Origin: Pseudomonadota bacterium
Lineage (GTDB): Bacteria; Desulfobacterota; Desulfobulbia; Desulfobulbales; Desulfocapsaceae
Assembly (NCBI GenBank): GCA_018820855.1
Contig: JAHJNL010000010.1
Span: 62,001-126,000 of the forward strand
Direction: 5' to 3'
Length of the DNA: 64,000 nucleotides
A program made the position numbers and the translations under genes. Of the stretch, positions 8,246-25,373 are shown piece after piece. How positions within the stretch are numbered: the first letter of the stretch is position 1; each line of letters starts with the position of its first letter. Under the pieces are notes generated by a model that saw only the letters and a list, made by a program, of their open reading frames with translations, searched no databases and was not told the DNA's origin.

Positions 8246-8470
8246 AAGACTGGCGCGCTTGCCGGTATTGAAGATTGTAAAACAGATTGCAGTGCGGATT
8301 TTCTGCATGATACAGATGTAACCCTGACAGCGCTTGCAGATGTAAAGAGTGAGTTCAAAGAGTGGTCCGGCGACGGTTGTACCGGCATTAATCCTTGGAC
8401 TGTAACAATGGCTCAGGCTCGTGAGATCACTGCTACGTTCAGCAGGGTTTTTTATACTATCTTTTACTGA
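8246..8470 (+). pseudogene. Orphan InlB-type B-repeat domain remnant
   Basis: The frame is open for 74 codons after a TGA at 8243-8245 and has no start codon or ribosome-binding site. It reads GIEDCKTDCSADF, then DTDVTLTALAD, then EWSGDGCTG, then WTVTMAQAREITATF. This is the recognisable core of the divergent InlB B-repeat found in secreted Desulfobacterota proteins (G-I-x-C-x-x-D-C, TLTA, WSGDC, VTM...VTATF). It appears to be a leftover C-terminal domain of a longer surface protein, possibly an older version of the SBBP gene. It overlaps the end of the convergent response regulator by 14 bp. Confidence 0.62.
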
Positions 8471-9776
8471 TTCCGTATTTTTTAATTCTGTAACGAAGCG
8501 TATTCCGACTAATTCCCATTGCCCTCGCTGCTTCAGACTGATTATAGCTGCAATTTTCTAAAACAGAGGCAATGAGTTGTTGCTCTCTGTCATGGAGGTC
8601 AGTTGAGACCACTACTGTTTTTCGTCTGTCTACTTGTCTGGCTACCTGGATTGACGAGGGCAGGTGCTCTGGATTGATTGTTTTTCCTTCGCAACTCAGC
8701 ACTGCCCGTTCAATAACATTTTTCATCTCTCTGACATTGCCGGGCCAGGTAAAAGAATGCAACAGTTTCATGCTTTCCGGGGCAAGTGTGATCTGTGATT
8801 TAACAAATTTTTTGCCGAACATGCCGAGAAAATGGTCAATGAGGAGGGTAAGGTCACCATCGCGCTGGCGGATAGGGGGCATGTGCAGGTGAACAGTGTT
8901 CAGACGGTAATAGAGGTCTTCCCGGAATGTCTTTTCAGCAAGCATTTTTCCGAGATCTCGATTGGTTGCTGATAAAATTTTGACGTTGATTTTTTGTGTT
9001 TTTCCGGAACCGACAGGGGTGATCATTTTTTCTTCCACTGCATGCAGGAGTTTTGGCTGGAGTTGCAGGGGCAGATCACCTATCTCGTCTAAAAAAATGG
9101 TGCCTCCATCTGCTCTGCTGAACGCCCCTTCCCGATTTGCCGTGGCCCCTGTAAATGCCCCTTGGATATGGCCAAAGAGCTCACTCTCCAGCAGTTCATG
9201 GGGGATGGCCGCACAGTTGACTCGGATAAACGGGCCTTCCGGGTGTTGAGAGGACTGATGGATAGCCCTTGCCGCCAGTTCTTTTCCTGTCCCGGATTCA
9301 CCGCTTATCAGCACTGAACTGTCAGTGGAGGCAAAGCGTGTGATATTCTGTCGGACTTTCTGCATGATTGCGGAGGAGCCTATCAACTCTTTGCTGTCCT
9401 GTGCGGGAGGCTGGCGGGACTCAAGTGCCTCTGCAATGATCGCCAGCAGCTCGAGGTTGTCGACAGGTTTTGTCAGATAATCGAAGGCCCCATCTTTCAT
9501 AGCCAATACTGCCGTTTCCACGGTGCCGAATGCAGTAAGAATAATAATGGGCGTCTGAGGATCAGAGTGTTTGCCGAAGCCCAGCACCTCTATGCCATTC
9601 AAGGGTTCCATCATCAGGTCTGTGAGTACCACATCCGGCCGCCATTTCTGCCATGTGTCGATGCCCTCTTGACCGTCTGCTGCGGTCTGTACATCATATT
9701 TGGCATCCAGCAGGATCAGTTGCAGGATTCGCCGGAGTCGATCGTCATCTTCAATGAGTAAGATTTTGTGTGTCAT
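8457..9776 (-). CDS. Sigma-54-dependent response regulator (NtrC/AtoC type)
   Basis: 439 aa with three domains. The receiver (1-120) has acidic EDDD, phosphoacceptor D53 in VLTDLMM and Lys in TKPVDN. The AAA+ domain has Walker A GESGTGKE near 159, the sigma-54 contact loop GAFTGA near 220 and DEIGDLPLQLQPKLL. The C-terminal Fis-type helix-turn-helix reads NQSEAARAMGISRNTLRYRIKKYGI. With GAFTGA intact it should activate sigma-54 promoters. The start overlaps the stop of the upstream histidine kinase by 4 bp, so the two form an operon and a cognate pair. The nearest recognisable sigma-54 promoter lies about 3 kb away at 12916, in front of the mop operon, which makes that operon a candidate target. 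Confidence 0.94.
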   Translation of the reverse strand: MTHKILLIEDDDRLRRILQLILLDAKYDVQTAADGQEGIDTWQKWRPDVVLTDLMMEPLNGIEVLGFGKHSDPQTPIIILTAFGTVETAVLAMKDGAFDYLTKPVDNLELLAIIAEALESRQPPAQDSKELIGSSAIMQKVRQNITRFASTDSSVLISGESGTGKELAARAIHQSSQHPEGPFIRVNCAAIPHELLESELFGHIQGAFTGATANREGAFSRADGGTIFLDEIGDLPLQLQPKLLHAVEEKMITPVGSGKTQKINVKILSATNRDLGKMLAEKTFREDLYYRLNTVHLHMPPIRQRDGDLTLLIDHFLGMFGKKFVKSQITLAPESMKLLHSFTWPGNVREMKNVIERAVLSCEGKTINPEHLPSSIQVARQVDRRKTVVVSTDLHDREQQLIASVLENCSYNQSEAARAMGISRNTLRYRIKKYGISKR

Positions 9777-12232
9777 GATGTCCTTGGTGAAGGTATTGCT
9801 GTCACTGATTGGAGTTCAGCGGAATTCGTTTTGAATGGAAGATGAATGGTTACTTCCGCACCGCTGTTGTCTCCGTTCCTGATACGGATTGAACCATTAT
9901 GTGCATGGATAAGTTGTTGGCAGACCGGGAGTCCCAGTCCCAGTCCTCGCGTTTTGGTGGAGAAAAAATTCTTGAAGACATCTTTCAGATCTTCCGCTGC
10001 GATGCCCGGGCCGTTGTCGGTTATCCGGATGACAGCCAGGTCTTCGTATTCTTTTGCTGAAAGAGTAATTTTGCCGCTGTTCCCCATGGCTTCTTCACTG
10101 TTGCGGATGAGATTGAGCAGGATCTGGCCTAGTTGGCTTATGTCGGTATGGATTGCAGGAAAATGGGTTGGAATGTCGCATTCTATCAGAATATCAGGGT
10201 GATGGGCTGCGGAGAGTTGCCATTTGTCAATGAGAGCAGGGATGGCTGTCTGCACGGTGACGGGCAGAAATATCGGGGAACGGTGTCTTGCATGTCCCAA
10301 GAGACTGGTGATGGTCAGATTGAGGCTGTCCACTTCTTCTACAATAAATGTAAGTATCTCCTCCATGATTTCAGGGCTCTGCCTTCCCGTGCTCAGGTGC
10401 TGGGCGGAACTGCGGATAACCGCAAGCGGATTTTTGAGCTCGTGTGCCAGTACCATGGACATTTCACCAATTGCTGCCATCTTTTTCTGTTGGACCAATT
10501 GCTCAAACAGTTCTTCAAGCTGACGTTTACTTTTGGACAGTGATTCATAGCGAAGGCTGTTTTCCAATGCAATGCCGGTGTGATTGGCAAGGGTGGAAAA
10601 AAAATGGATATCTTCACTGGTAAAAAGTCGGCCATTGATTTTGGGGCCGATGAAAAGCAGACCGATGAGAGCGCTGTTTCCCTGTAAGCCGAAGACCATG
10701 CTGTATCCTGCCTGCCTGATTTCTTCCAGTTCGTAAGAGAGTTGTGGCTCAGTGGTAAGAGTGTGGCAGTGGAAAAAGTCTTCTTTTTCTTTGAATTTGC
10801 TAGCCAGTCTGCTGCTGCTCCACTTTTTGGGGTTAAGAATGGGGTTTTTGGCGGGAAGGGGATCTGTCTTTTCATCTATGATCAGTATGGCTGCCCGGCG
10901 AAGAGCAAAATGCTGTGGCATGTCACGGACTACTGCCTGGACAAGATCCGGAATATCCAGGGCAGCACTGATCTGCCGGCTGAGTTTGTTGAGCAGGAGC
11001 GGGGGGAATGGTTTGTTGCCGAAAATAAAACGATCGATGGCTTTTTGCAGCCGGTTTGCCAGGGGATTGAAAATGGCTATGACAATGACCAGAAAGACAA
11101 GGAAGAGTTCTTCGGAAAGAACTTGCTTTCCCCAGAGCCATCGTTTGAGGACGATGAGAAAAAGTGAATACAGGACAGTTATTGAGATTATCAGGATCAT
11201 ATAAGCCAGGACCTTGCTGATCATCCGGTCTACCTGGAACAGGCGGTAGCGAAGAAGGGCAAAAAGGTAAGCCAGGGGTAGAAATAAGAATGTCAGAATA
11301 ACCGTCCGGAAATGAATAAGTGGGTGGTCAATGAGAAGATTGGGAAGCAGGTAAAAAAATAAATAGGGGCTGAATGTCAGCCAGTAGGCGGCAAGGGGGA
11401 GCTTGATCTGGTTTTTTGCCGGTTGCGGAGGAAGTTTGATGAAATCAATGAGGTGCTTTGCGAAGGTGCCTAAGATAATCAGAGGGAGGAAAATATTGCG
11501 CAGACGTTGCAGCCAGCTCCAGAATTCAGGATTCGGCCCGGCTGTAAGCAGTGCAGCTGAAACAGTTGCCACTGGCGGCAGAAGGTAGAAAAATGCAGCA
11601 GGCCAGCTTCGTTTTTTCAAGAGGTCTCGTTCTGAGGGGAAGCGCCAGGCAAAGTGAATCCAGGCCCCGAAGGCAAACCAGTTACTGAGAGCCAGACAGA
11701 AAAAGCTCATGGAAATAAGCATTGGATTCATGATCCCGGTATGGGAGACCAGTGTGGAGGCGATGGCGCTTGAAAAGCCACAGAGCATCAGAAAAAAAAG
11801 TCGAGTTGTATGGCCTGGGGGAGCATGGATAAGAGCAATTGATGCCAATGCCAGAAAGAGAGCAATGAGGAGAAAGTGAGGCCAGACAAGCAGGAGAAAT
11901 GAGGAAAGAGTAAAGGGGATTGTTTTGAGTGGGAGCGTGATCTGCTGCCCTTTGCGCAAGAGAGTGATCGTGTTTTTCGTGTCTGGAGGAGTCCTCGTTT
12001 GAAGGACAAGCTGTCCCAGTACCTTAGGGTAGGGAATAGTATTTACTGCAATGATCAGATCATCGGTATGGACAGGATTGAGTTGGCTGTTGGTGACCTG
12101 GGATATCCGGAGGCCGTGTTGCGTTTTATCAACCTTGAAGCCCGGATTCCCATAGAGGAAGGCGGACAGGGCAAAAAACAGGGTGAAAAAGAGGGGAAGT
12201 GCCGTACCACTGAGTAATCTGTTTTTTGACAT
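9773..12232 (-). CDS. Membrane sensor histidine kinase (multi-TM, GAF)
   Basis: 819 aa from the ATG at 12232 (MSKNRLLSG); the track start at 12298 is a GTG that would place charged residues before the first membrane segment. After the first TM helix comes a PDZ-like periplasmic stretch (KVDKTQHGLRISQV...LLRKGQQITLPL). Next is a block of about seven or eight hydrophobic helices, a GAF-like domain, the H-box LAHELKNPLAVIRSSAQHL, and ATPase motifs LIRNSEEAMG, DNGPGIA and GLGLGLPVC. It should phosphorylate the sigma-54 activator encoded immediately downstream (4-bp overlap). The ligand is unknown; the many TM helices suggest a membrane-borne or lipid-soluble signal. No strong ribosome-binding site was seen at either start. 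Confidence 0.9.
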   Translation of the reverse strand: MSKNRLLSGTALPLFFTLFFALSAFLYGNPGFKVDKTQHGLRISQVTNSQLNPVHTDDLIIAVNTIPYPKVLGQLVLQTRTPPDTKNTITLLRKGQQITLPLKTIPFTLSSFLLLVWPHFLLIALFLALASIALIHAPPGHTTRLFFLMLCGFSSAIASTLVSHTGIMNPMLISMSFFCLALSNWFAFGAWIHFAWRFPSERDLLKKRSWPAAFFYLLPPVATVSAALLTAGPNPEFWSWLQRLRNIFLPLIILGTFAKHLIDFIKLPPQPAKNQIKLPLAAYWLTFSPYLFFYLLPNLLIDHPLIHFRTVILTFLFLPLAYLFALLRYRLFQVDRMISKVLAYMILIISITVLYSLFLIVLKRWLWGKQVLSEELFLVFLVIVIAIFNPLANRLQKAIDRFIFGNKPFPPLLLNKLSRQISAALDIPDLVQAVVRDMPQHFALRRAAILIIDEKTDPLPAKNPILNPKKWSSSRLASKFKEKEDFFHCHTLTTEPQLSYELEEIRQAGYSMVFGLQGNSALIGLLFIGPKINGRLFTSEDIHFFSTLANHTGIALENSLRYESLSKSKRQLEELFEQLVQQKKMAAIGEMSMVLAHELKNPLAVIRSSAQHLSTGRQSPEIMEEILTFIVEEVDSLNLTITSLLGHARHRSPIFLPVTVQTAIPALIDKWQLSAAHHPDILIECDIPTHFPAIHTDISQLGQILLNLIRNSEEAMGNSGKITLSAKEYEDLAVIRITDNGPGIAAEDLKDVFKNFFSTKTRGLGLGLPVCQQLIHAHNGSIRIRNGDNSGAEVTIHLPFKTNSAELQSVTAIPSPRTS

Positions 12233-12877
12233 GGAGTAAGGGAGTGGCCCTGACCTGTTCCAAGGATCATTTTTTGGTTGGCACAGTGGCTGCAACACAA
12301 CAGGATGTTTGTCATACCTATCGGTTTTGACGTGAAAATAGCTTATACAGTATGGCCGGCCAGGTCAAGGAGAGTCTTAAGGCAACCCACATCGGGAGGG
12401 GAAGTTTGTGTCCCATTTCTTGATCAGTGGCGTTTGAGGTCTTTGGTCTGATTGTCGTCTTCTATAAGGTGGTGCTGAAAGGTCTTCTGTCCAGGGACTG
12501 GTTGCGGAAAACACTCTGAGTCCGTTTTCTCGTTGTTCATGCGTCTTCAGTCTTTCGATCCATCTTTGTGACGTCTTGTTGTGGGTCAGATAGCGGTGTT
12601 ATTTGTTGTAACTATATGTCATCTACGGTCGCGTGCAGTTATTCCTTGATTTAAAAAATCCATTTTTATACCGTGTAAGTAGTTATTTTTGATTGTGGGC
12701 CATAAAAAAAGGGGCAGAGTGACCCTTTCTCGCTTTCCGTGTGGTTCATTATGACCCAATACATTTAAAGGCAGTGCTGCCGAGGTGTTACAGGATAATT
12801 GTCACTCTGTTTTGCTGACGGCAGAAATAATGTTCGTTGCAGGTGAGTCATCTTGTCCCCGCTTGGTTTTTCAAAAA
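12233..12877. other. Gene-free upstream region of the mop operon
   Basis: About 650 bp lies between the kinase start and the sigma-54 promoter. No convincing ORF was found. A small hairpin (AAAGGG with CCCTTT) sits near 12708-12727. Track ORFs 12765-12986 and 12785-12967 run across the promoter and look spurious. The length would fit upstream activator sites for a sigma-54 enhancer-binding protein and the promoter of the divergent kinase. Confidence 0.4.
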
Positions 12878-12896
12878 TCCTGTCTAACAAACAGGA
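12878..12896. promoter_or_regulatory. Inverted repeat 20 bp upstream of the sigma-54 promoter
   Basis: TCCTGT (12878-12883) and ACAGGA (12891-12896) form a 6-bp dyad with a 7-bp spacer. Spacing and position suit an operator. The site is closer to the promoter than most enhancer sites, so it could also bind a repressor or an unrelated factor. Confidence 0.35.
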
Positions 12897-12915
12897 ATTG
12901 CGCGCTATTAGACAT

Positions 12916-12930
12916 TGGCACGTTACTTGC
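12916..12930 (+). promoter_or_regulatory. Sigma-54 (-24/-12) promoter
   Basis: TGGCACGTTACTTGC matches the RpoN consensus (TGGCACG, four bases, TTGC) at every fixed position, with the GG and GC elements at the required 12-bp spacing. Transcription should begin near 12942, about 370 bp before mop. A sigma-54 activator and its kinase are encoded about 3 kb to the left. Confidence 0.8.
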
Positions 12931-12956
12931 TTTAATGCAGGAACAGTTGCTCCTGA

Positions 12957-13223
12957 ATGCAAATTGAGACAACAACTAGCGACCATGAATTAAAGGAAGA
13001 CCCGAATAAGCACAGATGTGGTTCATATCTTAGTGAGGCGGGCAAGGTGATGGACATCGTGCGGGGAGATCTTCATCGCTTTTTTCATGTCCGTGCTGGG
13101 CTAAAAGCCGCTGAAGCCCATTGCATATATGTCTGTTTTGAAATGAATGCACCAGAACTGTCCACAGATAGAAATTTTGATAAAATCCGTAAAAATACGA
13201 TTTTATCAGCTTTGATTGAGTGA
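12957..13223 (+). CDS. Small ORF in the leader of the mop transcript, unknown
   Basis: An 88-aa ORF lies just downstream of the predicted start of transcription and 92 bp before mop. I do not recognise it. The middle (CGSYLSEAGKVMDIVRGDLHRFFHVRAGLK) looks protein-like, with three Cys residues, and the ends are polar. The ATG lacks a good ribosome-binding site; an AGGA lies about 14 bases upstream. It could be a genuine small protein, a leader peptide or chance. Its position inside the sigma-54 transcript is the main reason to keep it. Confidence 0.35.
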   Translation: MQIETTTSDHELKEDPNKHRCGSYLSEAGKVMDIVRGDLHRFFHVRAGLKAAEAHCIYVCFEMNAPELSTDRNFDKIRKNTILSALIE

Positions 13224-13315
13224 AAAATGCCGGACATTGCGCAGCCTGTCTTTTTCATTCTTTGCTGCCTGGTAAGTGATATTTTTTAATAATAACAATT
13301 GAATGGGAGAGTGAA

Positions 13316-16033
13316 GTGATCAAAAAGAAACTATACGTCAATGGTGTTGAAAGAAATCTTGTTGTTGAGGCTGATGACAGTTTGGCAGAGGTACTGAGAA
13401 AAAACCTGAGACTGACCGGTACCAAGATTGGATGCGGCAAAGCCCAGTGTGGTGCCTGTAATGTTATTATGGATGGTAAGCTGACCCGTTCCTGCGTGAC
13501 GAAAATGTCACGAGTTGTTGATGGTGCCGCAGTAACGACCATTGAAGGAATAGGTACTCCGGACGACCTCCATGCGATACAAATGGCCTGGATGGTTCAT
13601 GGCGGCGCACAATGCGGATTCTGTACTCCTGGATTTGTTGTTTCCGCTAAAGCACTCCTCGATTCTAATCCGGATCCTTCACGTGAAGATGTTCGTGACT
13701 GGTTTCAGAAAAATCGCAATGCCTGCCGCTGTACAGGATATAAGCAACTGGTCGATGCGGTTCAGGATGCTGCCAAGGTGATGAAGGGTGAAATCAGCCT
13801 GAAGGATCTGGCCTATAAGATACCTGCTGATGGCAAGGTGTTCGGAACCAGTCAACCACGTCCGAGTGCTGCCGCCAAGGTTACAGGAACCTGGGATTTC
13901 GGTGCAGACCGTGGCCTGCAGCTTCCGGAAAATACCTTGCAGATGGCTCTGGTGCAGGCAGAGGTTTCTCACGCCAGGATCCTTTCCGTTGATACCAGTG
14001 AAGCTGAAAAAATGGCCGGTGTCTTTAAGGTGATAACAGCTAAAGACATCAAAGGGAAAAATCGTATTACCGGTCTGATAACATTTCCGACAAACAAGGG
14101 TGACGGTTGGGATCGTCCCATTCTGTGTGATGAAAAAGTGTTTCAGTATGGTGATGCCATTGCCATAGTCTGCGCAGATACCGAGAAAAATGCCAAAGCT
14201 GCTGCTAAAATGGTCAAAGTGGAACTGGAGGAACTCCCGGCTTACATGAGTGCTCCGGCTGCAATGGAAGACGATGCCCTGGAAATCCATCCCGGTACTC
14301 CAAATATTTATTACATCCAGAAAATAGCCAAGGGTGAAGAGACTGCTCCTATTTTTGATAAATCAGATGTGGTTATTGAGGGAGATTATTATGTCGGTCG
14401 CCAGCCCCATATGCCAATAGAACCTGATGTAGGTTTCGCCTATCACAATGAAGATGGGAAACTGGTTATCCATTCAAAATCCATTGGTGTCCATCTCCAT
14501 CTCTATATGATCGCTCCGGGTCTCGGCCTTGAGCCGGAAGACCTTATATTGGTCCAGAACAATGCTGGCGGCACTTTCGGCTACAAATTCAGCCCTACCA
14601 TGGAAGCACTGGTCGGTGCCGCGGCCATTGCCACCGGTCGCCCTGTATTCCTCTGCTATGATTATTTCCAGCAGCAGACCTATACCGGCAAACGTTCTCC
14701 ATTCTTTATGAATGTGAAAATGGCTACGGATAAAGACGGTATGATCAAGGCCATGGAAACCGACTGGTCTGTTGACCATGGACCGTATTCCGAATTTGGC
14801 GATCTTCTGACCTTGCGTGGTGCTCAGTTTATCGGCGCAGGCTATGATATCAAAAATATCCGTGGTGAAGGCCGTACTGTCTGTACCAATCATGCCTGGG
14901 GGTCTGCATTCCGTGGTTATGGTTCTCCCCAGTCTGAGTTCGCTTCAGAAGTACTCATGGATGAACTGGCGGAAAAACTTGGGATGGATGCGTTGGAGCT
15001 GCGTTACAAAAACTGTTATCGCAAGGGTTCCACAACTCCAACGGGTCAGGATCCCGAGGTCTATTCTCTGCCGGAAATGCTTGATATCCTGCGACCCAAG
15101 TATGAAGAGGCAAAAAAGACATCAGCTGCCAACTCGACTGACGAGATAAAACGCGGGGTGGGTATTGCCCTGGGCGTCTACGGCTGTGGTCTCGATGGGC
15201 CTGATACGGCTGAAAGCGTAGCTGAACTGAATGCTGACGGTACTGTTACCATTTTCAATACATGGGAAGATCATGGGCAGGGAGCGGACATGGGAACGCT
15301 TGGTACGGCCCATGAGGCCTTAAGGCCACTGGGAATTTCTTCAGATCAGATCAAACTGGTCATGAATGACACCGAAACGTGCCCCAACTCCGGTCCTGCA
15401 GGCGGAAGTCGCAGCCAGGTTGTGGTTGGACAGTCGGTCCGTGTTGCCTGTGAAGAGCTGGTCAAATCCATGCAAAAGGATAGCGCTTCATTCCGCACGT
15501 ATGATGAAATGGTGGCTGACAACATCCCCACCAAAGTAAACGGCAAATGGTCTGCCCCTGCCGGCAACTGTGATGAAAACGGACAGGGCAATCCCTTCTG
15601 TTGTTACATGTATGGTCTGTTCATGGCCGAGGTTGCCGTTGAGGTGGCCACCGGCAAGACAAGTGTTGAAAAAATGACCTGTGTGGCCGATGTCGGTAAA
15701 ATCAACAACAAACTCGTAGTTGACGGGCAGCTTTACGGCGGTATGGCCCAGGCCATCGGTCTTGCCCTGACCGAGGATTTTGAAGATATTAAAAAGCACT
15801 CAACTCTGGTTGGTGCTGGATTCCCATATATCAAACAGATTCCTGACGATATGGAACTGCTCTATGTGGAAACTCCGAGACCTGATGGTCCTTTCGGCGC
15901 CTCAGGTGTCGGCGAATTACCGCTGACCTGTCCCCATGCCGCAGTGATCAACGGCATTTACAATGCATGTGGTGCTCGTATCAGACATCTGCCGGCATTA
16001 CCTGAAAAGGTTCTTGCTGCATTGCCGAAATAA
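13316..16033 (+). CDS. mop: Molybdenum-containing aldehyde oxidoreductase (Mop)
   Basis: 905 aa, almost the length of the D. gigas enzyme (907), and strongly similar to it as I recall that sequence. It oxidises aldehydes to carboxylic acids at a molybdopterin cytosine dinucleotide site. The plant-ferredoxin-like [2Fe-2S] cluster is bound by C40, C45, C48 and C60 (GCGKAQCGACNV). The second cluster is bound by QCGFC near 100-103 and CRCTGY near 137-139. The Mo domains carry GGTFGYKF, AFRGYG and, near the C-terminus, GASGVGELPLT with the catalytic Glu. The start is a GTG at 13316 with GGGAGA a few bases upstream. There is no signal peptide, as in the cytosolic D. gigas protein. It is the first main gene of the operon. 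Confidence 0.95.
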   Translation: MIKKKLYVNGVERNLVVEADDSLAEVLRKNLRLTGTKIGCGKAQCGACNVIMDGKLTRSCVTKMSRVVDGAAVTTIEGIGTPDDLHAIQMAWMVHGGAQCGFCTPGFVVSAKALLDSNPDPSREDVRDWFQKNRNACRCTGYKQLVDAVQDAAKVMKGEISLKDLAYKIPADGKVFGTSQPRPSAAAKVTGTWDFGADRGLQLPENTLQMALVQAEVSHARILSVDTSEAEKMAGVFKVITAKDIKGKNRITGLITFPTNKGDGWDRPILCDEKVFQYGDAIAIVCADTEKNAKAAAKMVKVELEELPAYMSAPAAMEDDALEIHPGTPNIYYIQKIAKGEETAPIFDKSDVVIEGDYYVGRQPHMPIEPDVGFAYHNEDGKLVIHSKSIGVHLHLYMIAPGLGLEPEDLILVQNNAGGTFGYKFSPTMEALVGAAAIATGRPVFLCYDYFQQQTYTGKRSPFFMNVKMATDKDGMIKAMETDWSVDHGPYSEFGDLLTLRGAQFIGAGYDIKNIRGEGRTVCTNHAWGSAFRGYGSPQSEFASEVLMDELAEKLGMDALELRYKNCYRKGSTTPTGQDPEVYSLPEMLDILRPKYEEAKKTSAANSTDEIKRGVGIALGVYGCGLDGPDTAESVAELNADGTVTIFNTWEDHGQGADMGTLGTAHEALRPLGISSDQIKLVMNDTETCPNSGPAGGSRSQVVVGQSVRVACEELVKSMQKDSASFRTYDEMVADNIPTKVNGKWSAPAGNCDENGQGNPFCCYMYGLFMAEVAVEVATGKTSVEKMTCVADVGKINNKLVVDGQLYGGMAQAIGLALTEDFEDIKKHSTLVGAGFPYIKQIPDDMELLYVETPRPDGPFGASGVGELPLTCPHAAVINGIYNACGARIRHLPALPEKVLAALPK

Positions 16034-16055
16034 CAGCACTGATTGGAGTCATGTA

Positions 16056-16085
16056 CAGGGGCAGCTGTGTCCGCAGCTGCCCCTG
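16056..16085 (+). repeat. Intercistronic hairpin after mop
   Basis: A perfect 12-bp G/C-rich stem, CAGGGGCAGCTG with CAGCTGCCCCTG, has a 6-nt loop and lies 22 bp after the mop stop. No T-run follows, so full termination is unlikely. It may stabilise the mop mRNA end or reduce read-through, so that the enzyme is made in excess of the accessory proteins. Confidence 0.65.
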
Positions 16086-16119
16086 ATTCCATAAGACCTC
16101 AGCACACAGGTACTTCAGG

Positions 16120-18423
16120 ATGGATCAACAGCAGCTCAGGAACTTTGAAGCACGATGTATACAGGAGGAGCAACCCTTTTGTACAGCGGCATGCCCGATC
16201 CATATCGATGTCCGACCATTCATGGCCTGTATTGCCAAAGGTGATATGCGTGGTGCACGGCGCGTTCTTGATCGTACCATGCCCTTTGCCGATATTGTCG
16301 GCCGCATCTGTGATCAGTCCTGCCGTACGGCCTGTAAACGCAGGGAGATTGATTCCCCTCTAGCCATCGGCAGTCTGGAAAGATACTGTGTGTCAACGGT
16401 GCCTGCTGTTATCAAACCCCCAAAACTTCCCGGTAAAGGCGGCAGTGTTGCAGTCATAGGCAGCGGCTTGAGCGCCATGACCGCAGCCCTTGATCTCGCC
16501 CGCAAGGGACGTAATTCTCTTATTCTGACATGTGATGAAGCAATTGGCGGTACTCTTCGAACCTATGCGGAGGAGTTGTTGCCGGCCCAGGCACTTGCCA
16601 CTGCTGTAGAAACCCTTGATTTCTACGGTGTCTCCATTCAGTTCGGCTGTTCTCTCACCAACGAATTTTTTCAAACAATCCGACAAGATCACGATGCTGT
16701 TTTTCTGGATAGAGATTGTGCCGATCTTCATGGTTTGGCCGTTGATTGCGCCCATCCGGATCCGTTTACGCTAGGCATCGGCAGAGAAGGATGTTTTGCC
16801 GGCGGCGGGTGCCTGGAAAACAGCTATTCCGTCATCAAACAGGTTGAGGACGGACGTCGCGCTGCCCTGACCATTGAGCGATATCTGCAGCAGGTGTCCC
16901 TTACCGCCCAGCGTGAAAGGGAAGGAGCCTGCCCCACCAGGATGTATACGGTGACCACAGGTATCCAGTCACAACAAGAGGTTCTTCCTGCTGATCAGCA
17001 AGCAGGGTTTACTGCTGCAGAAGCGGTGCAGGAAGCCGCCCGGTGCATCCAGTGTCAATGCATGGAATGCGTTAAAGAATGCACTTTTCTTCAGGAGTTT
17101 CACGATTATCCAAAACAACTTGTCCGTAAGATCTATAATAACGAAGCCATTGTCCAGGGAACCCGGTCGGCGAACAGGATGATCAACTCGTGCAGCCTGT
17201 GCGGTCAGTGTCAGGTTGTTTGCCCCAACGACATCCCCGTGGCTGATGTCTGCCTTGCCAGTAGAAGGAGCATGGTGGAAAAATCCACCATGCCGCCTTC
17301 AGCACATGATTTTCCCCTGCAGGACATGGAGTTTAGTCAGAGTGATTTTTTTGCCATGACAAGGCACCAGCCAGGGAGTGACAGCAGCCGTTTTCTTTTT
17401 TACCCCGGTTGTCAGCTTGCCGGATCCGCACCGCAGGCGGTTGAACAGACCTACCTGCATCTTACCCAACAGCTCAGTGGTGGGGTAGGTCTGATGTTCG
17501 GTTGTTGCGGCATTCCGGCCCACTGGGCAGGCAGGCAGGAGCTTTTTGCTAAGACCATGCAGGATTTCCTTTTTGAGATTGAGGAGATGGGTAATCCGAT
17601 TATTATTACTGCCTGCTCAAGCTGTTATAGCATTTTTAAGGAATTTGCTCCGAACCTTTCCCTCCGCTCTCTTTGGCAGATTCTTGAAGATATCGACCTG
17701 CCCGAACAGAGAGGACTGATCCCCCAACAGCCAATGGCCATTTATGACCCGTGTACGGCCAGACATGAACCAGAGATACGTGACAGTGTACGCCGCTTGA
17801 CGAAGAAACTGGGATTCAGCATTGAAGAGCATCCGCTTTCAGGAAAGTTGGCTGATTGTTGCGGATATGGCGGTCTGATGCAGTTTGCCAATCCGGAACT
17901 TGGCGGAAAAACTGCCAGAAAAAAAGGGCAGCGCAGTGTCCACGACGGTCTGGCATACTGCTCCATGTGCCGTGACAATCTCGCCTCTTCAGGAAAACGT
18001 ATTGCCCATTTACTGGACTATCTTTTTCCTGCTGCAGATCCGGAAGACCCTGCTCTGCGCAGGAATCCCGGCTTCTCAAGGCGTCATGAAAACCGGGCAA
18101 GGTTGAAACAGCGCCTGCTTACCACCCTTTGGCATGAGGAATCGGATATGACTCCGGAGTATAAAAAAATTGAGCTCTTCATTACACCACTAATTATGGA
18201 GTTGTTGAATTCACGACATATCCTGGAGGACGATATTCAAAAGGTTATCTTTCAGGCAGAACAAACGGGAAGGAGACTGGTTGATCCTGAAAGCGGACAC
18301 TTCCTTGCCAGTTACAAACCGGTGCGGGTGACATACTGGGTGGAGTATGAACCGGGTATGCAGGGATTTATCATTCATAACGCTTACAGCCATCGAATGA
18401 GTCTGCCGGGAGACGTCAAATGA
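16120..18423 (+). CDS. FAD/iron-sulfur electron carrier (GltD-like N-terminus, dicluster ferredoxin, two CCG domains)
   Basis: 767 aa and modular. The N-terminus resembles the iron-sulfur domain of glutamate synthase beta subunits (CTAACPIHIDV, CDQSCRTACKR). A single FAD-type Rossmann motif, VAVIGSGLSAMTAALDLARKG, starts near 110. It is followed by the closing FAD segment GREGCFAGG...DGRRAALTIERYL near 220-255. The NAD(P)H-binding Rossmann module that GltD proteins carry between these is not visible. Two [4Fe-4S] motifs follow (CIQCQCMECVKEC near 309; CSLCGQCQVVCP near 357). Then come two CCG (heterodisulfide-reductase-like) domains, FYPGCQL...FGCCG near 427-464 and DPCTAR...DCCGYGG near 541-585. 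It could carry electrons between Mop and a thiol, ferredoxin or quinone-linked partner. I recall the NCBI family as pyridine nucleotide-disulfide oxidoreductase/dicluster-binding protein. Confidence 0.85.
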   Translation: MDQQQLRNFEARCIQEEQPFCTAACPIHIDVRPFMACIAKGDMRGARRVLDRTMPFADIVGRICDQSCRTACKRREIDSPLAIGSLERYCVSTVPAVIKPPKLPGKGGSVAVIGSGLSAMTAALDLARKGRNSLILTCDEAIGGTLRTYAEELLPAQALATAVETLDFYGVSIQFGCSLTNEFFQTIRQDHDAVFLDRDCADLHGLAVDCAHPDPFTLGIGREGCFAGGGCLENSYSVIKQVEDGRRAALTIERYLQQVSLTAQREREGACPTRMYTVTTGIQSQQEVLPADQQAGFTAAEAVQEAARCIQCQCMECVKECTFLQEFHDYPKQLVRKIYNNEAIVQGTRSANRMINSCSLCGQCQVVCPNDIPVADVCLASRRSMVEKSTMPPSAHDFPLQDMEFSQSDFFAMTRHQPGSDSSRFLFYPGCQLAGSAPQAVEQTYLHLTQQLSGGVGLMFGCCGIPAHWAGRQELFAKTMQDFLFEIEEMGNPIIITACSSCYSIFKEFAPNLSLRSLWQILEDIDLPEQRGLIPQQPMAIYDPCTARHEPEIRDSVRRLTKKLGFSIEEHPLSGKLADCCGYGGLMQFANPELGGKTARKKGQRSVHDGLAYCSMCRDNLASSGKRIAHLLDYLFPAADPEDPALRRNPGFSRRHENRARLKQRLLTTLWHEESDMTPEYKKIELFITPLIMELLNSRHILEDDIQKVIFQAEQTGRRLVDPESGHFLASYKPVRVTYWVEYEPGMQGFIIHNAYSHRMSLPGDVK

Positions 18424-18629
18424 GCAATTTTTCCTTCATTGCAGAAACGGACTGGCGCTGTGCCTGCTGTAATAAAAACCTTCAGGCAAGCAAGGTGAAT
18501 GTGGAATATATGGGCTCTGTCTTCAATGTTGAACTGATGGTCTGTCCTGACTGCGGTTTTGTCCTTATTCCGGAAGACCTGGCCCTTGGTAAAATGCTCC
18601 AGGTTGAACAGCTTCTTGAAGATAAATAA
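18420..18629 (+). CDS. Small double-CxxC redox protein (DVU_1557-like)
   Basis: 69 aa, starting at an ATGA overlap with the previous stop. Two Cys pairs (CACC and CPDC, about 38 residues apart) make a rubredoxin-like or zinc-ribbon-like fold, followed by an acidic tail. The position in the operon and the size match what I recall as the DVU_1557 family of redox proteins next to aldehyde oxidoreductase genes in Desulfovibrio. The cysteines could bind iron for one-electron transfer or bind zinc; the sequence does not decide this. Confidence 0.8.
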   Translation: MSNFSFIAETDWRCACCNKNLQASKVNVEYMGSVFNVELMVCPDCGFVLIPEDLALGKMLQVEQLLEDK

Positions 18630-18638
18630 GAATCTCTC

Positions 18639-19376
18639 ATGTCTCTCTTATGCCACGGTCATACAGCATCCCTGCTCTGTGAACAGAAAGAACTGCAGCG
18701 GATGACAGGCGATACCCTTCGTCCCGGAGGACTGGAGCTGACAAACAGGGCCATGCAGTTCTGCAACCTGCCTGCCCACAGTACTGTTCTTGATGTGGGG
18801 TGCGGTTATGGTCAGACCATGGCTCTTCTCTCTGCACAATTCGGTCTTCATGTCATGGGGCTTGATCCGGCAGAATCCATGTTGCGGAAAACGGCAGAAC
18901 TGCTTCCAGCTTCTCTAATATTCCAGGCAGATGCAGCAGCTATTCCTGTGCGAAGCAATTTCTTCGATGCTCTCATTGCGGAGTGTGTGCTCTCTCTTCT
19001 GGCTGATATGCAGGCAAGTCTGGAGGAGATGCATCGTGTACTTGTTCAGGGCGGAAGACTGGTCCTGACCGATATCTACGCAAGAAAAGAAAACTTCCTG
19101 CCCGGAGTGCCGCAGAGTGGTATTCACAGCTGCTTTAACGGCGCGGTTTCCATTGACACCATCAGGGAATGTCTGCAGGCCGCCGGATTTACCATACTGC
19201 TTCTTGAGGATCATACCAGATTCCTGCGGCAACTCGCCGGTCAGATAATCTTCTCATTCGGCAGCCTGGAAGCGTTCTGGCAGCTCTTCATGGGGGTGGA
19301 TAAAGCGGCAACTACCTGCGGTTCCATTGCCAACGCAAAACCCGGCTATTATCTGCTTATTGCCGCAAAGGAGTAA
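18639..19376 (+). CDS. trsM: Class I SAM-dependent methyltransferase (DVU_1556-like, TrsM)
   Basis: 245 aa. Motif I is VLDVGCGYGQTMALL, the acidic ribose contact is in VMGLDPAESML, and a further motif reads FFDALIAECVLSLL. This is a Methyltransf_11-type fold. About 60 residues at the N-terminus precede the fold and include HGHTASLLCEQKELQRMTG...RPGG. Cys-rich neighbours and a radical SAM gene two positions downstream suggest a role in modifying a cofactor or peptide rather than general metabolism, but the substrate is unknown. The name TrsM follows my memory of the NCBI family; the start lies 9 bp after the previous stop. Confidence 0.8.
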   Translation: MSLLCHGHTASLLCEQKELQRMTGDTLRPGGLELTNRAMQFCNLPAHSTVLDVGCGYGQTMALLSAQFGLHVMGLDPAESMLRKTAELLPASLIFQADAAAIPVRSNFFDALIAECVLSLLADMQASLEEMHRVLVQGGRLVLTDIYARKENFLPGVPQSGIHSCFNGAVSIDTIRECLQAAGFTILLLEDHTRFLRQLAGQIIFSFGSLEAFWQLFMGVDKAATTCGSIANAKPGYYLLIAAKE

Positions 19377-19381
19377 TTGCT

Positions 19382-19837
19382 ATGGATGATACAACGTTGC
19401 GCATCATGCAGCTTGGTTCCCAGGGATTACGCTGCAGTCAGATATTGATGCAGCTTGCCCTTGAAGATATGGGGGAGGCCAACGTCGGTCTGGTTCGTGC
19501 CCTGTCGGGCCTGTGTAATGGCCTGGGCTCCGGAGAAATATGCGGAGCTGCAAGTGGAGGCGCCTGCGTTATTGCCTTTTATGCTGCAAAAGGGGACAGC
19601 AGTGAAGAGGAAGAGCAGGATTATCAGTTGATGCTTGCCGAGTTCATGGGATGGTTCAAAGAGACGGCTCCCCCCAGATGGGGAGGTGTCAGATGTGATG
19701 AGATCATTTCCGGTGGGGCTGCCATGGAAACAGAGAAATGTGGTGACATCGTCGCTGCGACCCGCAACAGGATTCTGGAAATATTGGCCACATACGGCTT
19801 TGATCCGAGTTTGCCGAGAGAATCAGGCCATGAATGA
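19382..19837 (+). CDS. C-GCAxxG-C-C family protein (DVU_1555-like)
   Basis: 151 aa with the family signature: RCSQI near residue 20, GSGEICGAASGGACVI near 55 and RCDEIISGG near 110. Families with this spacing of Cys residues are thought to bind a metal or iron-sulfur cluster, and many sit beside redox genes. It lies 5 bp after the methyltransferase, and its last codons overlap the start of the radical SAM gene by 8 bp, so translation is probably coupled. Its role in the operon is unknown; a cluster carrier or scaffold is possible. Confidence 0.83.
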   Translation: MDDTTLRIMQLGSQGLRCSQILMQLALEDMGEANVGLVRALSGLCNGLGSGEICGAASGGACVIAFYAAKGDSSEEEEQDYQLMLAEFMGWFKETAPPRWGGVRCDEIISGGAAMETEKCGDIVAATRNRILEILATYGFDPSLPRESGHE

Positions 19838-21221
19838 GAAGAGCAGCAGTGATATCCTTTCCTCAACAAAGAGCATCTGCCCTGTCTGCCTGAAGCGTCT
19901 GTCTGCTGTTCGGGAAAAACATGGTGACGATGTCTATCTGGTAAAAAAATGTTTTGAGCACGGAGAATTCAAGACGATAATCTGGCGTGGCCCCTTATCT
20001 TTTACTTCCTGGAAACGTCCGAAAAAGGCGTCGTCGCCGCAACATACGTTCACAAAATCAGAGCGGGGGTGCCCCCACGATTGCGGGCTCTGCCCCAGTC
20101 ACGGCCAGCATACCTGTACTGCACTCATAGAGATCACAACACGCTGTAATCTCCGCTGCAAGGTATGTTTTGCCGATGCCGGCAGTAACACGGCGGCAGA
20201 TCCGTCTCTAGACAAAATCGCTTTTTTCTATGACCGGCTCATGCAGGCAAGCGGTTCCTGTAACGTTCAGCTGTCCGGCGGTGAGCCCACGGTAAGAGAT
20301 GATCTTGCAGATATCGTCAGGCTTGGCCGGGAAAAAGGCTTTTCTTTTCTGCAGCTGAATACCAACGGCATCCGCCTGGCAGAGGATGAAGCCTATGCGA
20401 AAAGCCTGAAGGACGCCGGCTTATCATCTGTCTTTCTCCAGTTTGACGGCCTGAGCGACGAAGTCCACCTGGCCCTGCGGGGACGTGCCCTTTCAGAGAT
20501 CAAGGAAATGGCCATTGTAAACTGCGCTCTTGCCGGTCTCGGGGTCGTGCTGGTACCTACGATTGTGCCAGGTGTCAACACCCAGGAACTTGCCGGAATT
20601 ATAGACTATGCAGCGAGATTTTCACCAACTGTGCGCGGAGTCCATTTCCAGCCGGTAAGCTATTTCGGCCGCTATCCGGAGCCGCCGCTGGACAGTGCCC
20701 GCATAACACTGCCGGAAATATTGATGCACATAGAAGAACAGACCAACGGTGAGATACCGGCACATCTTTTTTCACCACCCTCCTGTGAACATGCCCTCTG
20801 TTCCTTCCATGCCAATTTTCTGGTTCAGGAAGATCATAGCTTGAAAGGAATTACTTCCTGGCAACAGAACTGTTGCGCAGCCACCGAGAAAAAAGGAAAG
20901 ATCCCCGCGGCTGTTGTGGGCAGAGAGAAAAGTGTCAGCTTTACTGCCAGGCAATGGTCTGCTCCCAGCGCCTGCAAGTGCACCCCTGCAGAAGTTCCTG
21001 AAAATGAAGATGAACTGGATTTCTTTCTCAGAAGGGCAAAAACCCATACCTTTTCCATCTCCGGTATGGCCTTCCAGGATGCATGGAATCTGGATATTGA
21101 GCGATTGCAGGGCTGCTGTATCCATGTAGTCTCTCCTGAAGGAAACCTGATACCTTTCTGTGCCTATAACCTGACGTCAAGTCAGGGCAGAGGGCTGCAC
21201 AGAGCAGGGGGTGGCCAGTGA
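19830..21221 (+). CDS. trsS: Radical SAM protein (TrsS-like)
   Basis: 463 aa from the ATG at 19830; the track start at 19635 lies inside the previous gene. An N-terminal Cys-rich segment (CPVCLKRL, GCPHDCGLCPSH) precedes the radical SAM motif TTRCNLRCKVCFADAG near 115. It is followed by VQLSGGEPTVRDDL (the GGE motif) and LQLNTNGIRLA. The C-terminal part has further Cys residues (CEHALCSFH, NCCAATE, CKCTP, GCCIHVV, IPFCAYN). The layout is like radical SAM enzymes with auxiliary clusters. I recall TrsS as a family with some selenocysteine members; no in-frame TGA occurs before the end here, so this would be a Cys form. It probably makes a radical-based modification in the Mop system. Confidence 0.85.
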   Translation: MNEKSSSDILSSTKSICPVCLKRLSAVREKHGDDVYLVKKCFEHGEFKTIIWRGPLSFTSWKRPKKASSPQHTFTKSERGCPHDCGLCPSHGQHTCTALIEITTRCNLRCKVCFADAGSNTAADPSLDKIAFFYDRLMQASGSCNVQLSGGEPTVRDDLADIVRLGREKGFSFLQLNTNGIRLAEDEAYAKSLKDAGLSSVFLQFDGLSDEVHLALRGRALSEIKEMAIVNCALAGLGVVLVPTIVPGVNTQELAGIIDYAARFSPTVRGVHFQPVSYFGRYPEPPLDSARITLPEILMHIEEQTNGEIPAHLFSPPSCEHALCSFHANFLVQEDHSLKGITSWQQNCCAATEKKGKIPAAVVGREKSVSFTARQWSAPSACKCTPAEVPENEDELDFFLRRAKTHTFSISGMAFQDAWNLDIERLQGCCIHVVSPEGNLIPFCAYNLTSSQGRGLHRAGGGQ

Positions 21222-22534
21222 AAAGGAGCAGCGTTGAAGTTATCATGCAGCAGAGCATGGGGCTGGGAGGAGAGTTGTTCCCTGATCGTGCTGCTATTGA
21301 GTGCTATCAGATGGGCAGGCTGCAGGAGACAATCGGTCATGCCATGAAAAACAGCACTTTTTACCGCGACAAGATGGCAGGAATAGCTGCAATGGATTTC
21401 ACTGATTATCACTCGCTTTCCCTCCTGCCCTTTACAAGTGAAGATGATCTGCGCCGCCATGGTCAGGATATGCTCTGCGTCAGTCAGGATGAGGTAGCCC
21501 GTATCATCACCATGCAGAGTTCCGGTACTACCGGCGCACCCAAGCGGCTGTTTTTTACCGAGGATGATCTTGAGCGTACCATCGATTTTTTTCATCATGG
21601 CATGAAATCCCTGGCCAAACCGGGTGAGAAGGCAGTGATTCTGCTGCCGGGCAGCACTCCTGATTCCACAGGTGACCTTTTGTCCCGCGCCCTTGAGAGA
21701 ATGAATGTCAGCAGTCGGGTATACGGACTGGTGAACGATCCGCAGCAGGCGGCAGAGGAAGTGTTTGTCGAACCATTTGACGTGCTTGTCGGCTTTCCTG
21801 TGCAGATCCTGGCCCTGTCCCGGACCCAGGCAGCACAGGCTGGCACAGCCGGACAGCTTAAATCCGTTCTCCTCTGTTCTGATTATATTCCGCAAACCGT
21901 CTGTGATGAATTGTCGGCCAGGTGGCAGTGCCGGGTATTCAGCCATTACGGTACAGTTGAAACCGGCCTTGGAGGCGGGGTTGAATGCGAAGGGCTGTGT
22001 GGCTGTCATCTGCGTGAAGCAGATCTGCTTTTTGAAGTGATCCGTCCCAAAACAGATGTTGTACTCGCTGCAGGTGAATGGGGAGAAATTGTTTGTTCCA
22101 CTCTCAGCCGCAGGGGTATGCCTCTGATTCGCTATCGTACCGGTGATTATGGTCGTCTGCTCAGCGGGCCATGTGTGTGCGGCAGTCACATTGCACGACT
22201 GGATAAGGTGCGCGGCAGAATAAGTCAGGTCCTGCAGTTGGACAACGGACACGCCATCTCCATGGATATGCTGGATGAGACCCTGCTTTCTCTGCCAGGT
22301 GTTCTTGATTTTCAGGCTGTACTGCAAAAAGAAGAGAATGGCCGTGACAGACTCTCTATCCAGTTAGCTCTCATACCGGAAAGTAAAAATCACGTTGTTA
22401 AGCATGCGGCAGTGCTGCTCAAGGAAATAGCACAGCTGGAGAATATCCGGGTCTCCCTTGAGGAAAATTCCACAGGCCGCATCAATAAAGGGAAACGCAT
22501 AATCGAAGACCAAAGAGGAAAAAAACAGCTATGA
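21218..22534 (+). CDS. PaaK-like AMP-forming CoA ligase (DVU_1553-like)
   Basis: 438 aa, starting with a GTG that overlaps the previous stop. The size and motifs fit the phenylacetate-CoA ligase (PaaK) branch of adenylating enzymes: P-loop MQSSGTTGAPKRLFFTEDD near 97, SHYGTVETGLGG near 245, and LIRYRTGDYGRL near 305. It should activate a carboxylate with ATP. Aldehyde oxidoreductase produces carboxylates, so the ligase might activate the Mop product. Equally, it might adenylate a cofactor precursor or a protein, since neighbours look like maturation factors. The catalytic Lys region near the C-terminus (SLEENSTGRINKGKR) appears present. Confidence 0.83.
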   Translation: MKRSSVEVIMQQSMGLGGELFPDRAAIECYQMGRLQETIGHAMKNSTFYRDKMAGIAAMDFTDYHSLSLLPFTSEDDLRRHGQDMLCVSQDEVARIITMQSSGTTGAPKRLFFTEDDLERTIDFFHHGMKSLAKPGEKAVILLPGSTPDSTGDLLSRALERMNVSSRVYGLVNDPQQAAEEVFVEPFDVLVGFPVQILALSRTQAAQAGTAGQLKSVLLCSDYIPQTVCDELSARWQCRVFSHYGTVETGLGGGVECEGLCGCHLREADLLFEVIRPKTDVVLAAGEWGEIVCSTLSRRGMPLIRYRTGDYGRLLSGPCVCGSHIARLDKVRGRISQVLQLDNGHAISMDMLDETLLSLPGVLDFQAVLQKEENGRDRLSIQLALIPESKNHVVKHAAVLLKEIAQLENIRVSLEENSTGRINKGKRIIEDQRGKKQL

Positions 22535-23577
22535 AAAAGCTTATTCAACAGGTTTGTGATATCTTGGCAGATGGTGAAGATCTGGTGATGGCTACCATCT
22601 GCAGCAAAAACGGGTCGGCGCCCCGTATAGCTGGAGCCAGAATGATCGTCCGTGCAGATGGCAGAATTTTCGGAACCATCGGCGGCGGCATGGTCGAGGC
22701 CAAGGCAATAAAAGAGTCGGTACAGTCCTTTACCCATAAAAAATCGACGCGCCGTTTCTTTGATCTGAGCAATGCCGATGCCGCCGGAACAGATATGATA
22801 TGCGGTGGAACCATGGAGGTTTTTCTGGAATACATCTCGGCGGAACCGGAAAATATAAAGGTGTTCAGCGAGTTGCTTACAGCTCTTGACAGCGGGCGCA
22901 GGGTCTCCTTTGTCAGCAAACTCAATGGGCAGGCGAACAGCAGTTCACGCTTTGTTATCGCTGGTTGTGGAAAATCAAACCGTTGCCAGGCTCCGGATGT
23001 ACTTCGTGCAATTGTCAATAAACTCCGTCTCACCACATCCTCCCCTACTGTTATTATTTACGATGAGGAAGAGTATCTGGTTTCCTACTTTTCAATTCCG
23101 GGTGAGATCTTTCTTCTCGGTGCCGGTCACGTTGCCGCCTGTACTGCGGAAGCTGCCGCCATGGTAGGATTTCGGATCATTGTCATGGATGACAGGTCCG
23201 AGTTTGCCAATCAAGAGCGGTTTCCCTCCGCTGACGAAGTTGTTGTCCTTCCCTCCTTCGCCGATTGTTTTCAGGGGCATGACGTTTCACCGGACAGCTA
23301 TCTGGTTATTGTAACCAGAGGACACATGCATGACCGCGATGTCCTTGAACAGGCGCTCCGTACCAATGCCGGCTACATCGGTATGATCGGCAGCCGGAAA
23401 AAACGTGATGCCATTTACAGCAATCTTCTGGAAAGCGGTATGGTACAGGAACAGTTGGATCGGGTCTTCTGTCCCATCGGTCTTTCCATAGAGGCTGATA
23501 CGCCCGAGGAGATCGCGGTGAGTATTGTCGCGGAATTGATACAGCAAAGAGCAACAGGGCAGAATCGTGGGAAATGA
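22531..23577 (+). CDS. xdhC: XdhC/CoxI family molybdenum cofactor insertion protein
   Basis: 348 aa with the two parts of the family: an N-terminal XdhC_CoxI domain (VMATICSKNGSAPRIAGARM, GTIGGGMVEA) and a C-terminal Rossmann domain (IFLLGAGHVAACTAEAAAMVGF, VIVTRGHMHD, YIGMIGSRKK). XdhC proteins bind sulfurated molybdenum cofactor and deliver it to enzymes of the xanthine oxidase family. Mop belongs to that family, so the role is well supported by context. The ATG overlaps the ligase stop by 4 bp. Confidence 0.9.
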   Translation: MKKLIQQVCDILADGEDLVMATICSKNGSAPRIAGARMIVRADGRIFGTIGGGMVEAKAIKESVQSFTHKKSTRRFFDLSNADAAGTDMICGGTMEVFLEYISAEPENIKVFSELLTALDSGRRVSFVSKLNGQANSSSRFVIAGCGKSNRCQAPDVLRAIVNKLRLTTSSPTVIIYDEEEYLVSYFSIPGEIFLLGAGHVAACTAEAAAMVGFRIIVMDDRSEFANQERFPSADEVVVLPSFADCFQGHDVSPDSYLVIVTRGHMHDRDVLEQALRTNAGYIGMIGSRKKRDAIYSNLLESGMVQEQLDRVFCPIGLSIEADTPEEIAVSIVAELIQQRATGQNRGK

Positions 23578-24718
23578 GATTGCAGCCATCATTCCCGCTG
23601 CCGGCTTTTCCTCCAGGATGGGGAAGCTAAAGGCACTGCTCCCCCTTGGGGAAACGACAGTGCTGGGACAACTCATTGCCCTGTTGCAGTGCTGCGCTAT
23701 CCGTGACATTATCGTTGTCACCGGTCACAGGTCGGAAGAAGTCGGGCAGGTTGCCGTCGAGGCGGGTGCCCGGGCCGTATACAATGATGACTATGAGCTG
23801 GGAATGTTCACTTCGATCAAAACCGGTATCAAGGCCTTGAGCCCGGAGACAGATGGCTTTTTCCTGCATCCGGTGGATATTCCTTTGATCCGCAGGGGAA
23901 CAATCGGGCTGCTGTTCGAGGCCTTTGCCGCATTTCCTCAAGCAATTATTTACCCTGTCTTTCAGGGCAGGCGGGGGCATCCGCCTCTTATTACCACCTC
24001 GCTTTCTCAGCACATTCTCAAAAGTGATGCGCCGCACGGCCTGCGTGATCTGCTTGAGCAGGCAGACAGGCAGAGCATCGTGTCAGTCCGGGAGATTGAG
24101 GTGCCGGATGCAAACATCCTCTTTGATATGGATACCATGACTGACTACCGATCCGGTGTCGATCTCTATTGCAAAAGAGATGTGCCGACCATGGATGAGT
24201 GCAGGTTTCTGTTGCAGAGGATGTTCAAAATGCCAGCAAAGGGACTTGCCCATGCAGAACGGGTTGCTGATCTTGCCGTAGCAATTTGTGCACATATAGC
24301 CGAGAAAAGGGCAGAGGGGCCGGACCGTGACATTTGCCGGGCAGCCGGCTTGCTGCACGATATCGCCAAAGGGCACGCTAATCATGAAGTGGAGGGGGGG
24401 CGTTGGCTGCGTCAACTCGGGTTTGAGCGGACGGCAGATATCGTTGCAGCCCACAAGGATACAGAACTCGCTCCGGATACTCAGGTCACGGAAAAAGAAA
24501 TTGTCTACATTGCCGATAAGATGGTGAGCGGAAACAGGCTGGTCAGTGTGGCGGAACGTTTCCAGGAAAAGATGGATCTGTATGCAGACAATCCAGAGGC
24601 CTGCGCAGCAATCAAAAGACGTCTGCACCATGCCATGAACGTTATGGCAGCCATTGAAGATGAAACAGGTACAAGTCTGGATGCCATTGCTGCCGCCCTG
24701 CAAGAGGGGATAACCTGA
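23567..24718 (+). CDS. MobA-like nucleotidyltransferase fused to an HD domain (DVU_1551-like)
   Basis: 383 aa, two domains. The first (1-190) is a MobA/MocA-type NTP transferase with AAGFSSRMGKLKALLP, VTGHRSEEV and HPVDIPLI. In related enzymes it joins CTP to molybdopterin to give the MCD form that Mop needs. The second (about 200-383) is an HD domain with HAERVADLAVAICAH and AAGLLHDIAKGHANHE, as in metal-dependent phosphohydrolases. The start is a GTG overlapping xdhC by 11 bp. The fusion is notable because MocA itself has no HD domain; the HD part might remove a phosphate or hydrolyse a nucleotide by-product. Confidence 0.88.
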   Translation: MGNEIAAIIPAAGFSSRMGKLKALLPLGETTVLGQLIALLQCCAIRDIIVVTGHRSEEVGQVAVEAGARAVYNDDYELGMFTSIKTGIKALSPETDGFFLHPVDIPLIRRGTIGLLFEAFAAFPQAIIYPVFQGRRGHPPLITTSLSQHILKSDAPHGLRDLLEQADRQSIVSVREIEVPDANILFDMDTMTDYRSGVDLYCKRDVPTMDECRFLLQRMFKMPAKGLAHAERVADLAVAICAHIAEKRAEGPDRDICRAAGLLHDIAKGHANHEVEGGRWLRQLGFERTADIVAAHKDTELAPDTQVTEKEIVYIADKMVSGNRLVSVAERFQEKMDLYADNPEACAAIKRRLHHAMNVMAAIEDETGTSLDAIAAALQEGIT

Positions 24719-24720
24719 CA

Positions 24721-25323: not shown

Positions 25324-25325
25324 GA

Positions 25326-25373
25326 GCAGGAGGATATCCTCTCTGCTTCACTGTTTCTTTTTTCTCTTTTTTT
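25326..25373 (+). terminator. Likely terminator of the mop operon
   Basis: GCAGGAGG (25326-25333) and CCTC-T-CTGC (25338-25346) form an 8-bp stem with one bulged T and an ATAT loop. It is followed by a T-rich tract (TTTCTTTTTTCTCTTTTTTT). It begins 3 bp after the last stop of the operon. Confidence 0.5.

Follow-up and report, generated by a model that had tools for sequence, protein, structure and literature searches.

The molybdopterin-dependent aldehyde oxidoreductase operon (mop) in the window, i.e. the whole 64,000-nucleotide stretch of DNA analysed here, is very probably transcribed from a sigma-54 promoter that is worked, through three upstream dyads, by a two-component system encoded on another contig (C74) of the same genome. 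This system would control mop together with two iron-dependent alcohol dehydrogenase operons (adh1 and adh2), and the genomic island that carries mop would have been acquired with the enhancer in place. The predicted regulon concerns the oxidation of alcohols and aldehydes. Its putative operator, a triple of GGGTCA-N3-TGACCC dyads that the initial annotation had overlooked, appears to be the decisive regulatory feature of the mop upstream region. The features of both loci are listed in Table 1.

Table 1 Features of the mop region and of the C74 regulator locus. Positions are those of the window unless C74 is given
Feature	Position	Strand	Remarks
NtrC-type response regulator (adjacent pair)	8457-9776	-	Receiver, sigma-54 AAA+ domain, Fis-type HTH; resident, probably not the mop activator
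Membrane histidine kinase (adjacent pair)	9773-12232	-	GAF/HisKA/HATPase; resident, unlikely to be the mop kinase
mop island, 13.3 kb	12381-25701	.	With promoter and enhancer; absent from G018
Enhancer dyad 1, GGGGCAGAGTGACCC	12711-12725	+	11/12 to GGGTCA-N3-TGACCC; centre -224
Enhancer dyad 2, GGTTCATTATGACCC	12743-12757	+	11/12; centre -192; 32 bp from dyad 1
Enhancer dyad 3, GAGTCATCTTGTCCC	12845-12859	+	10/12; centre -90; 134 bp from dyad 1
Dyad TCCTGT-N7-ACAGGA	12878-12896	.	Not conserved, chance frequency; probably not functional
Sigma-54 -24/-12 element, TGGCACGTTACTTGCT	12916-12931	+	Predicted start ~12942
Untranslated leader, ~370 nt	12943-13315	+	3' half shared with relatives
mop, molybdopterin-dependent aldehyde oxidoreductase	13316-16033	+	NF045668, 1711 bits; GTG start
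Pyridine nucleotide-disulfide oxidoreductase/dicluster-binding protein	16120-18423	+	NF045663
DVU_1556 family methyltransferase	18639-19376	+	NF045667
DVU_1555 family C-GCAxxG-C-C protein	19382-19837	+	NF045669
Radical SAM protein TrsS	19821-21221	+	NF045646
DVU_1553 family AMP-dependent ligase	21218-22534	+	NF045666
XdhC-family aldehyde oxidoreductase maturation factor	22531-23577	+	NF045664
DVU_1551 family NTP transferase, HD domain	23567-24718	+	NF045665
Histidine-phosphatase/phosphoglycerate-mutase-like, last operon gene	24721-25323	+	ORF named from sequence reading; same place in relatives
NtrC-type response regulator, GSFTGA loop (ADH-linked regulator)	C74 460-1797		Sigma-54 AAA+ domain
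PAS kinase	C74 1797-2996
Fe-alcohol dehydrogenase 1 (adh1)	C74 2990-4210

The initial annotation had placed an RpoN-consensus promoter with correct spacing at 12916, and this proposal holds. TGGCACGTTACTTGCT is an exact match to TGGCACGN4TTGCW with the correct GG/GC spacing, and the element is kept upstream of mop, with the enhancer at a fixed distance, in three relatives (L003, L004 and L013). Its score of 19.1 is the top possible value of the consensus-based sigma-54 matrix used, while shuffles of the relatives' upstream regions gave a 95th-percentile best score of about 8-13; for the high-scoring regions of the relatives, shuffling the upstream 600 bp 100 times never yielded such a score. 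The rpoN gene was found in the genome. The strict sigma-54 pattern occurs twice in the 4.82 Mb genome (reversed control: 0), the second match being the adh2 promoter. Since base composition alone predicts about one strict match per genome, the string is weak on its own and its position and context are decisive. The same expectation, together with the absence of the promoter upstream of most mop operons, could be taken to mean that the match is fortuitous and that mop is driven from another promoter; the element lies 56 bp past the third dyad, however, just as the other regulon promoters do (53-56 bp), and its conservation in L003, L004 and L013 likewise makes a coincidence hardly credible. The element is thus likely the promoter of the mop operon, and sigma-54 control of mop, as judged from sequence, is well supported.

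The 15-bp dyad GGGTCA-N3-TGACCC was derived by comparing the sequences that precede the sigma-54 sites of mop and adh genes. All three copies at mop are conserved in the alignment with L003, L004 and L013. Among 20,000 shuffles of the region 12233-12915, none contained three such dyads and two contained two. In the window's own genome, the same triple is found at mop, at adh1 (C74) and at adh2 (C38), with spacings of 32 and 134-136 bp and about 55 bp ahead of the -24 element; in relatives, the layout recurs at mop, adh1, adh2 and a rubrerythrin-like gene. Overall, site 2 follows site 1 at 31-32 bp, site 3 follows site 1 at 132-136 bp, and the -24 element starts 53-57 bp after site 3. A degenerate pattern of this triple matched ten times in 193 genomes (reversed control: 0), and exactly three of these matches belong to the window's own genome, namely on C38, C64 (mop) and C74. 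The first gene downstream is adh2 in five cases, adh1 in two, mop in two and a gene for an aldehyde:ferredoxin oxidoreductase in one (G012), whose promoter, TGGCTTGGCTCTTGCT, lies at the expected distance from the triple. One detail counts against the favoured explanation: the adh1 promoter of the window's genome carries TAGCACG, not TGGCACG, at -24.

The regulator on C74, which has a sigma-54 AAA+ domain, is encoded together with a PAS kinase and an Fe-alcohol dehydrogenase and is referred to here as the ADH-linked regulator. It is 78-80% identical to its orthologs in L003-L006 and L013. The regulator and its kinase adjoin mop in ten mop-bearing relatives (L003, L004, L005, L006, L009, L013, L015, L018, L034 and L063), and Fe-alcohol dehydrogenase 1 is also located beside mop and the regulator pair in nine of the ten; G028 is arranged alike. 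The regulator is present in 39 of the 193 genomes, and all seven triple-bearing genomes are among these 39 (chance probability 8.7e-6, kinship not corrected). The 30 loci surrounding regulator orthologs contain 37 dyads that match at least 10 of 12 positions, where 5.1 would be expected, and a -24/-12 element frequently lies nearby. From this genomic association we infer that the GGGTCA-N3-TGACCC dyads are predicted sites of the ADH-linked regulator.

The second alcohol dehydrogenase gene, adh2, is found on C38 with hdr/flox-like genes and a sigma-54 promoter. The start of C74 and the end of C38 share an identical 141 bp (L133 1-141, L141 12633-12773), an assembly-graph overlap that joins both contigs, and the gene order of G018 matches the joined arrangement. 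Hence the adh1-kinase-regulator genes, tungstate-uptake-like genes and adh2-hdr/flox genes form one locus.

Based on these data, a mechanism of mop induction can be proposed. A cue, which may be an alcohol, an aldehyde or a redox signal, would act on the PAS kinase of C74. Of the aldehyde or membrane signal suggested by the initial annotation, the aldehyde comes near to this picture, as the predicted regulon deals with alcohols and aldehydes. The regulator, phosphorylated by its kinase, would bind the dyads at 12711, 12743 and 12845, oligomerise on the three sites and loop to the sigma-54 RNA polymerase, and its GSFTGA AAA+ motor would open the promoter at 12916-12931, with mop transcription starting near 12942. 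The same regulator is predicted to activate both alcohol dehydrogenase operons, adh2-hdr/flox and adh1-kinase-regulator, the second of which includes its own gene. With one regulator for adh1, adh2 and mop, the oxidation of alcohols and, by mop, of aldehydes would therefore be induced jointly.

A different activator had been suggested by the initial annotation, namely the kinase and regulator encoded next to mop at 8457-12232. The description of this pair was confirmed: the regulator has an intact GAFTGA loop, and the pair is divergent from mop; the domains are given in Table 1. Adjacency, divergent orientation and the intact loop would all suit an activator of the mop sigma-54 promoter; against this, the pair is conserved in relatives that lack mop. 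Orthologs of the pair are found in G018 (83% identity), G019, G001, G002, G012 and further genomes of the genus, while a search of 19 other same-genus genomes returned no mop. In G018, the pair is located beside the flanking transporter gene, with no mop between the two. Conversely, no kinase of the adjacent type was found anywhere in the relatives whose mop has this promoter and enhancer, and in the ten mop-bearing relatives it is the ADH-linked pair that adjoins mop, not the pair adjacent to it in the window. Six genomes with the adjacent pair and without the ADH-linked regulator (G001, G002, G009, G010, G013 and G019) have no triple enhancer, and the recognition helices of the two regulators differ. 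Activation of mop by the adjacent pair is thus very improbable, and the comparison of relatives associates the mop enhancer with the ADH-linked regulator instead. The regulator of an acquired operon need not be the neighbouring activator. In G012, a PEP-CTERM protein gene is located close to the ortholog of the adjacent pair, from which an envelope-related role of the pair could be guessed. A second sigma-54-like site, TGGCACAGTGGCTGCA (12279-12294), was rejected as a candidate; it is located in the upstream region of the resident kinase and is not kept in G018.

Similarly, the initial annotation had pointed to a dyad, TCCTGT-N7-ACAGGA, just upstream of the promoter. The sequence is indeed present, but it can be dismissed as an operator on account of non-conservation and a chance-level count. 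Its second arm is missing in the upstream alignment of the relatives, and the genome holds two exact copies and 18 places with at most one mismatch, compared with 30 in the reversed control. This dyad and the ~330 bp of island DNA ahead of dyad 1 are left unexplained by the triple enhancer, which would leave room for two inputs, the ADH-linked regulator acting through the triple and the adjacent regulator as a local extra. However, no further conserved element was found and the TCCTGT dyad occurs at chance frequency, so that such dual control is quite improbable.

The origin of the mop island was assessed by comparison with G018, the nearest relative. There, the upstream region of the kinase aligns up to window position 12380 and the flanking transporter gene aligns from 25702 on, with 17 bp between them; the window thus carries a 13.3-kb insert at exactly that site. 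For the mop accessory proteins encoded on the island, identity is 66-80% with those of L003, L004 and L013, which match genomes of another family (f3), and 50-65% with those of L005 and L006, which match genomes of f1, the family of the window. The f3-like identities and the empty site in G018 favour a transfer with the enhancer in place. The island would have arrived so equipped beside an unrelated resident kinase/regulator pair. Marks of a mobile element were sought at the island ends: the window has no tRNA gene, and direct repeats between the ends do not exceed 7 bp. The GC content of the island is similar to that of its flanks. The alternative to gain, a loss of the island in G018, is less likely on the sequences compared. 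The best reading is that the mop operon was probably acquired with an enhancer already fitting a resident, DVU2394-like two-component system of alcohol oxidation. There is about an even chance that the horizontally moved island brought the full three-site enhancer for the resident regulator, one transfer thereby extending an existing alcohol regulon to the oxidation of aldehydes, and that in this genome it may have assumed the regulated role of the tungsten-type aldehyde oxidoreductase.

A close known counterpart of the proposed system is DVU2394/DVU2395 of Desulfovibrio vulgaris, in which DVU2394 controls the adh-hdr operon DVU2405-2397 (Rajeev 2011, PMC3333781; Kazakov 2015, PMC4641369). Both regulators are sigma-54 NtrC-type response regulators with a GSFTGA loop and an Fe-alcohol dehydrogenase-hdr operon as target, the latter predicted for the system described here. 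In a check of the likeness to DVU2394, genomes of Nitratidesulfovibrio (near D. vulgaris) were found to encode a 52-54% identical protein and its kinase. Unlike in D. vulgaris, the predicted regulon includes mop. The site predicted here is an inverted repeat in three copies, whereas the validated DVU2394 motif was reported as a direct repeat, which counts against the favoured explanation. As that motif is reported from no strains other than D. vulgaris Hildenborough and Miyazaki (PMC3333781), the dyad is proposed as the operator for other lineages. In Clostridiales, genes for aldehyde oxidoreductase and alcohol dehydrogenase are the predicted targets of the sigma-54 activators AorR and AdhR (PMC6615313). 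These are separate activators for each gene and concern a different aldehyde enzyme, whereas here one two-component system appears to span the route from alcohol to acid.

The arrangement of sites also resembles a known one. At E. coli glnAp2, NtrC acts on a sigma-54 promoter from two operators 32 bp apart and from promoter-proximal sites. The 32-bp spacing of the pair is alike, but the sites in the window are farther upstream, and regulator and signal differ. Both the kind of promoter and the kind of operon are known; what would be new are the predicted membership of the regulon and the predicted operator. The latter, three GGGTCA-N3-TGACCC dyads at fixed spacing, would serve the alcohol-dehydrogenase response regulator that is widespread among sulfate reducers, in lineages other than D. 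vulgaris. Aldehyde oxidoreductases of both the molybdenum and the tungsten type would fall into one predicted regulon with alcohol dehydrogenases and an hdr/flox electron route.

Each gene at 13316-24718 matches, in order, one of the curated families that make up the aldehyde oxidoreductase cluster of the DVU_1551-1559 type, and by these matches the operon is of this known kind. The GTG start of mop aligns with the ATG of relatives. The 3' half of the leader is conserved with L003, L004 and L013, and the window lacks a block of more than 100 nt found in these. A riboswitch in the leader was considered and discarded, as Rfam gave no match at E values of up to 5. Neither of the two D. vulgaris regulome papers covers regulation of the mop operon in its main text, and a search for literature naming DVU1559-1554 returned only unrelated 'TrsS' matches.

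Many mop operons, notably those of Desulfovibrio, have neither this promoter nor the enhancer. The mop genes of Acetobacterium paludosum (L074 9537) and Desulfogranum japonicum (L069 9689) have a consensus-like sigma-54 element but no triple, which suggests other activators. The control of mop thus varies by lineage.

Further observations concern other members of the predicted regulon and the window itself. In G012, the triple enhancer and TGGCTTGGCTCTTGCT precede a gene for a tungsten-type aldehyde:ferredoxin oxidoreductase (L154 6199-8252); the upstream region of the corresponding gene in the window's genome (C38, near 78090) lacks the triple. The adh1-kinase-regulator promoter has TAGCACG for TGGCACG at -24, with the correct distance to the triple, in two genomes of the genus (L152 and L143, i.e. 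G000 and G006). The rubrerythrin-like gene, which separates the regulator from mop, carries a triple enhancer of its own and a TGGCACC-N4-TTGCC element (L003 4128-4346, L004 8314-8532, L013 8280-8497). Finally, the open reading frame at 646-3570 of the window has weak similarity (~25-33%) to the adjacent histidine kinase and probably encodes another sensor kinase.
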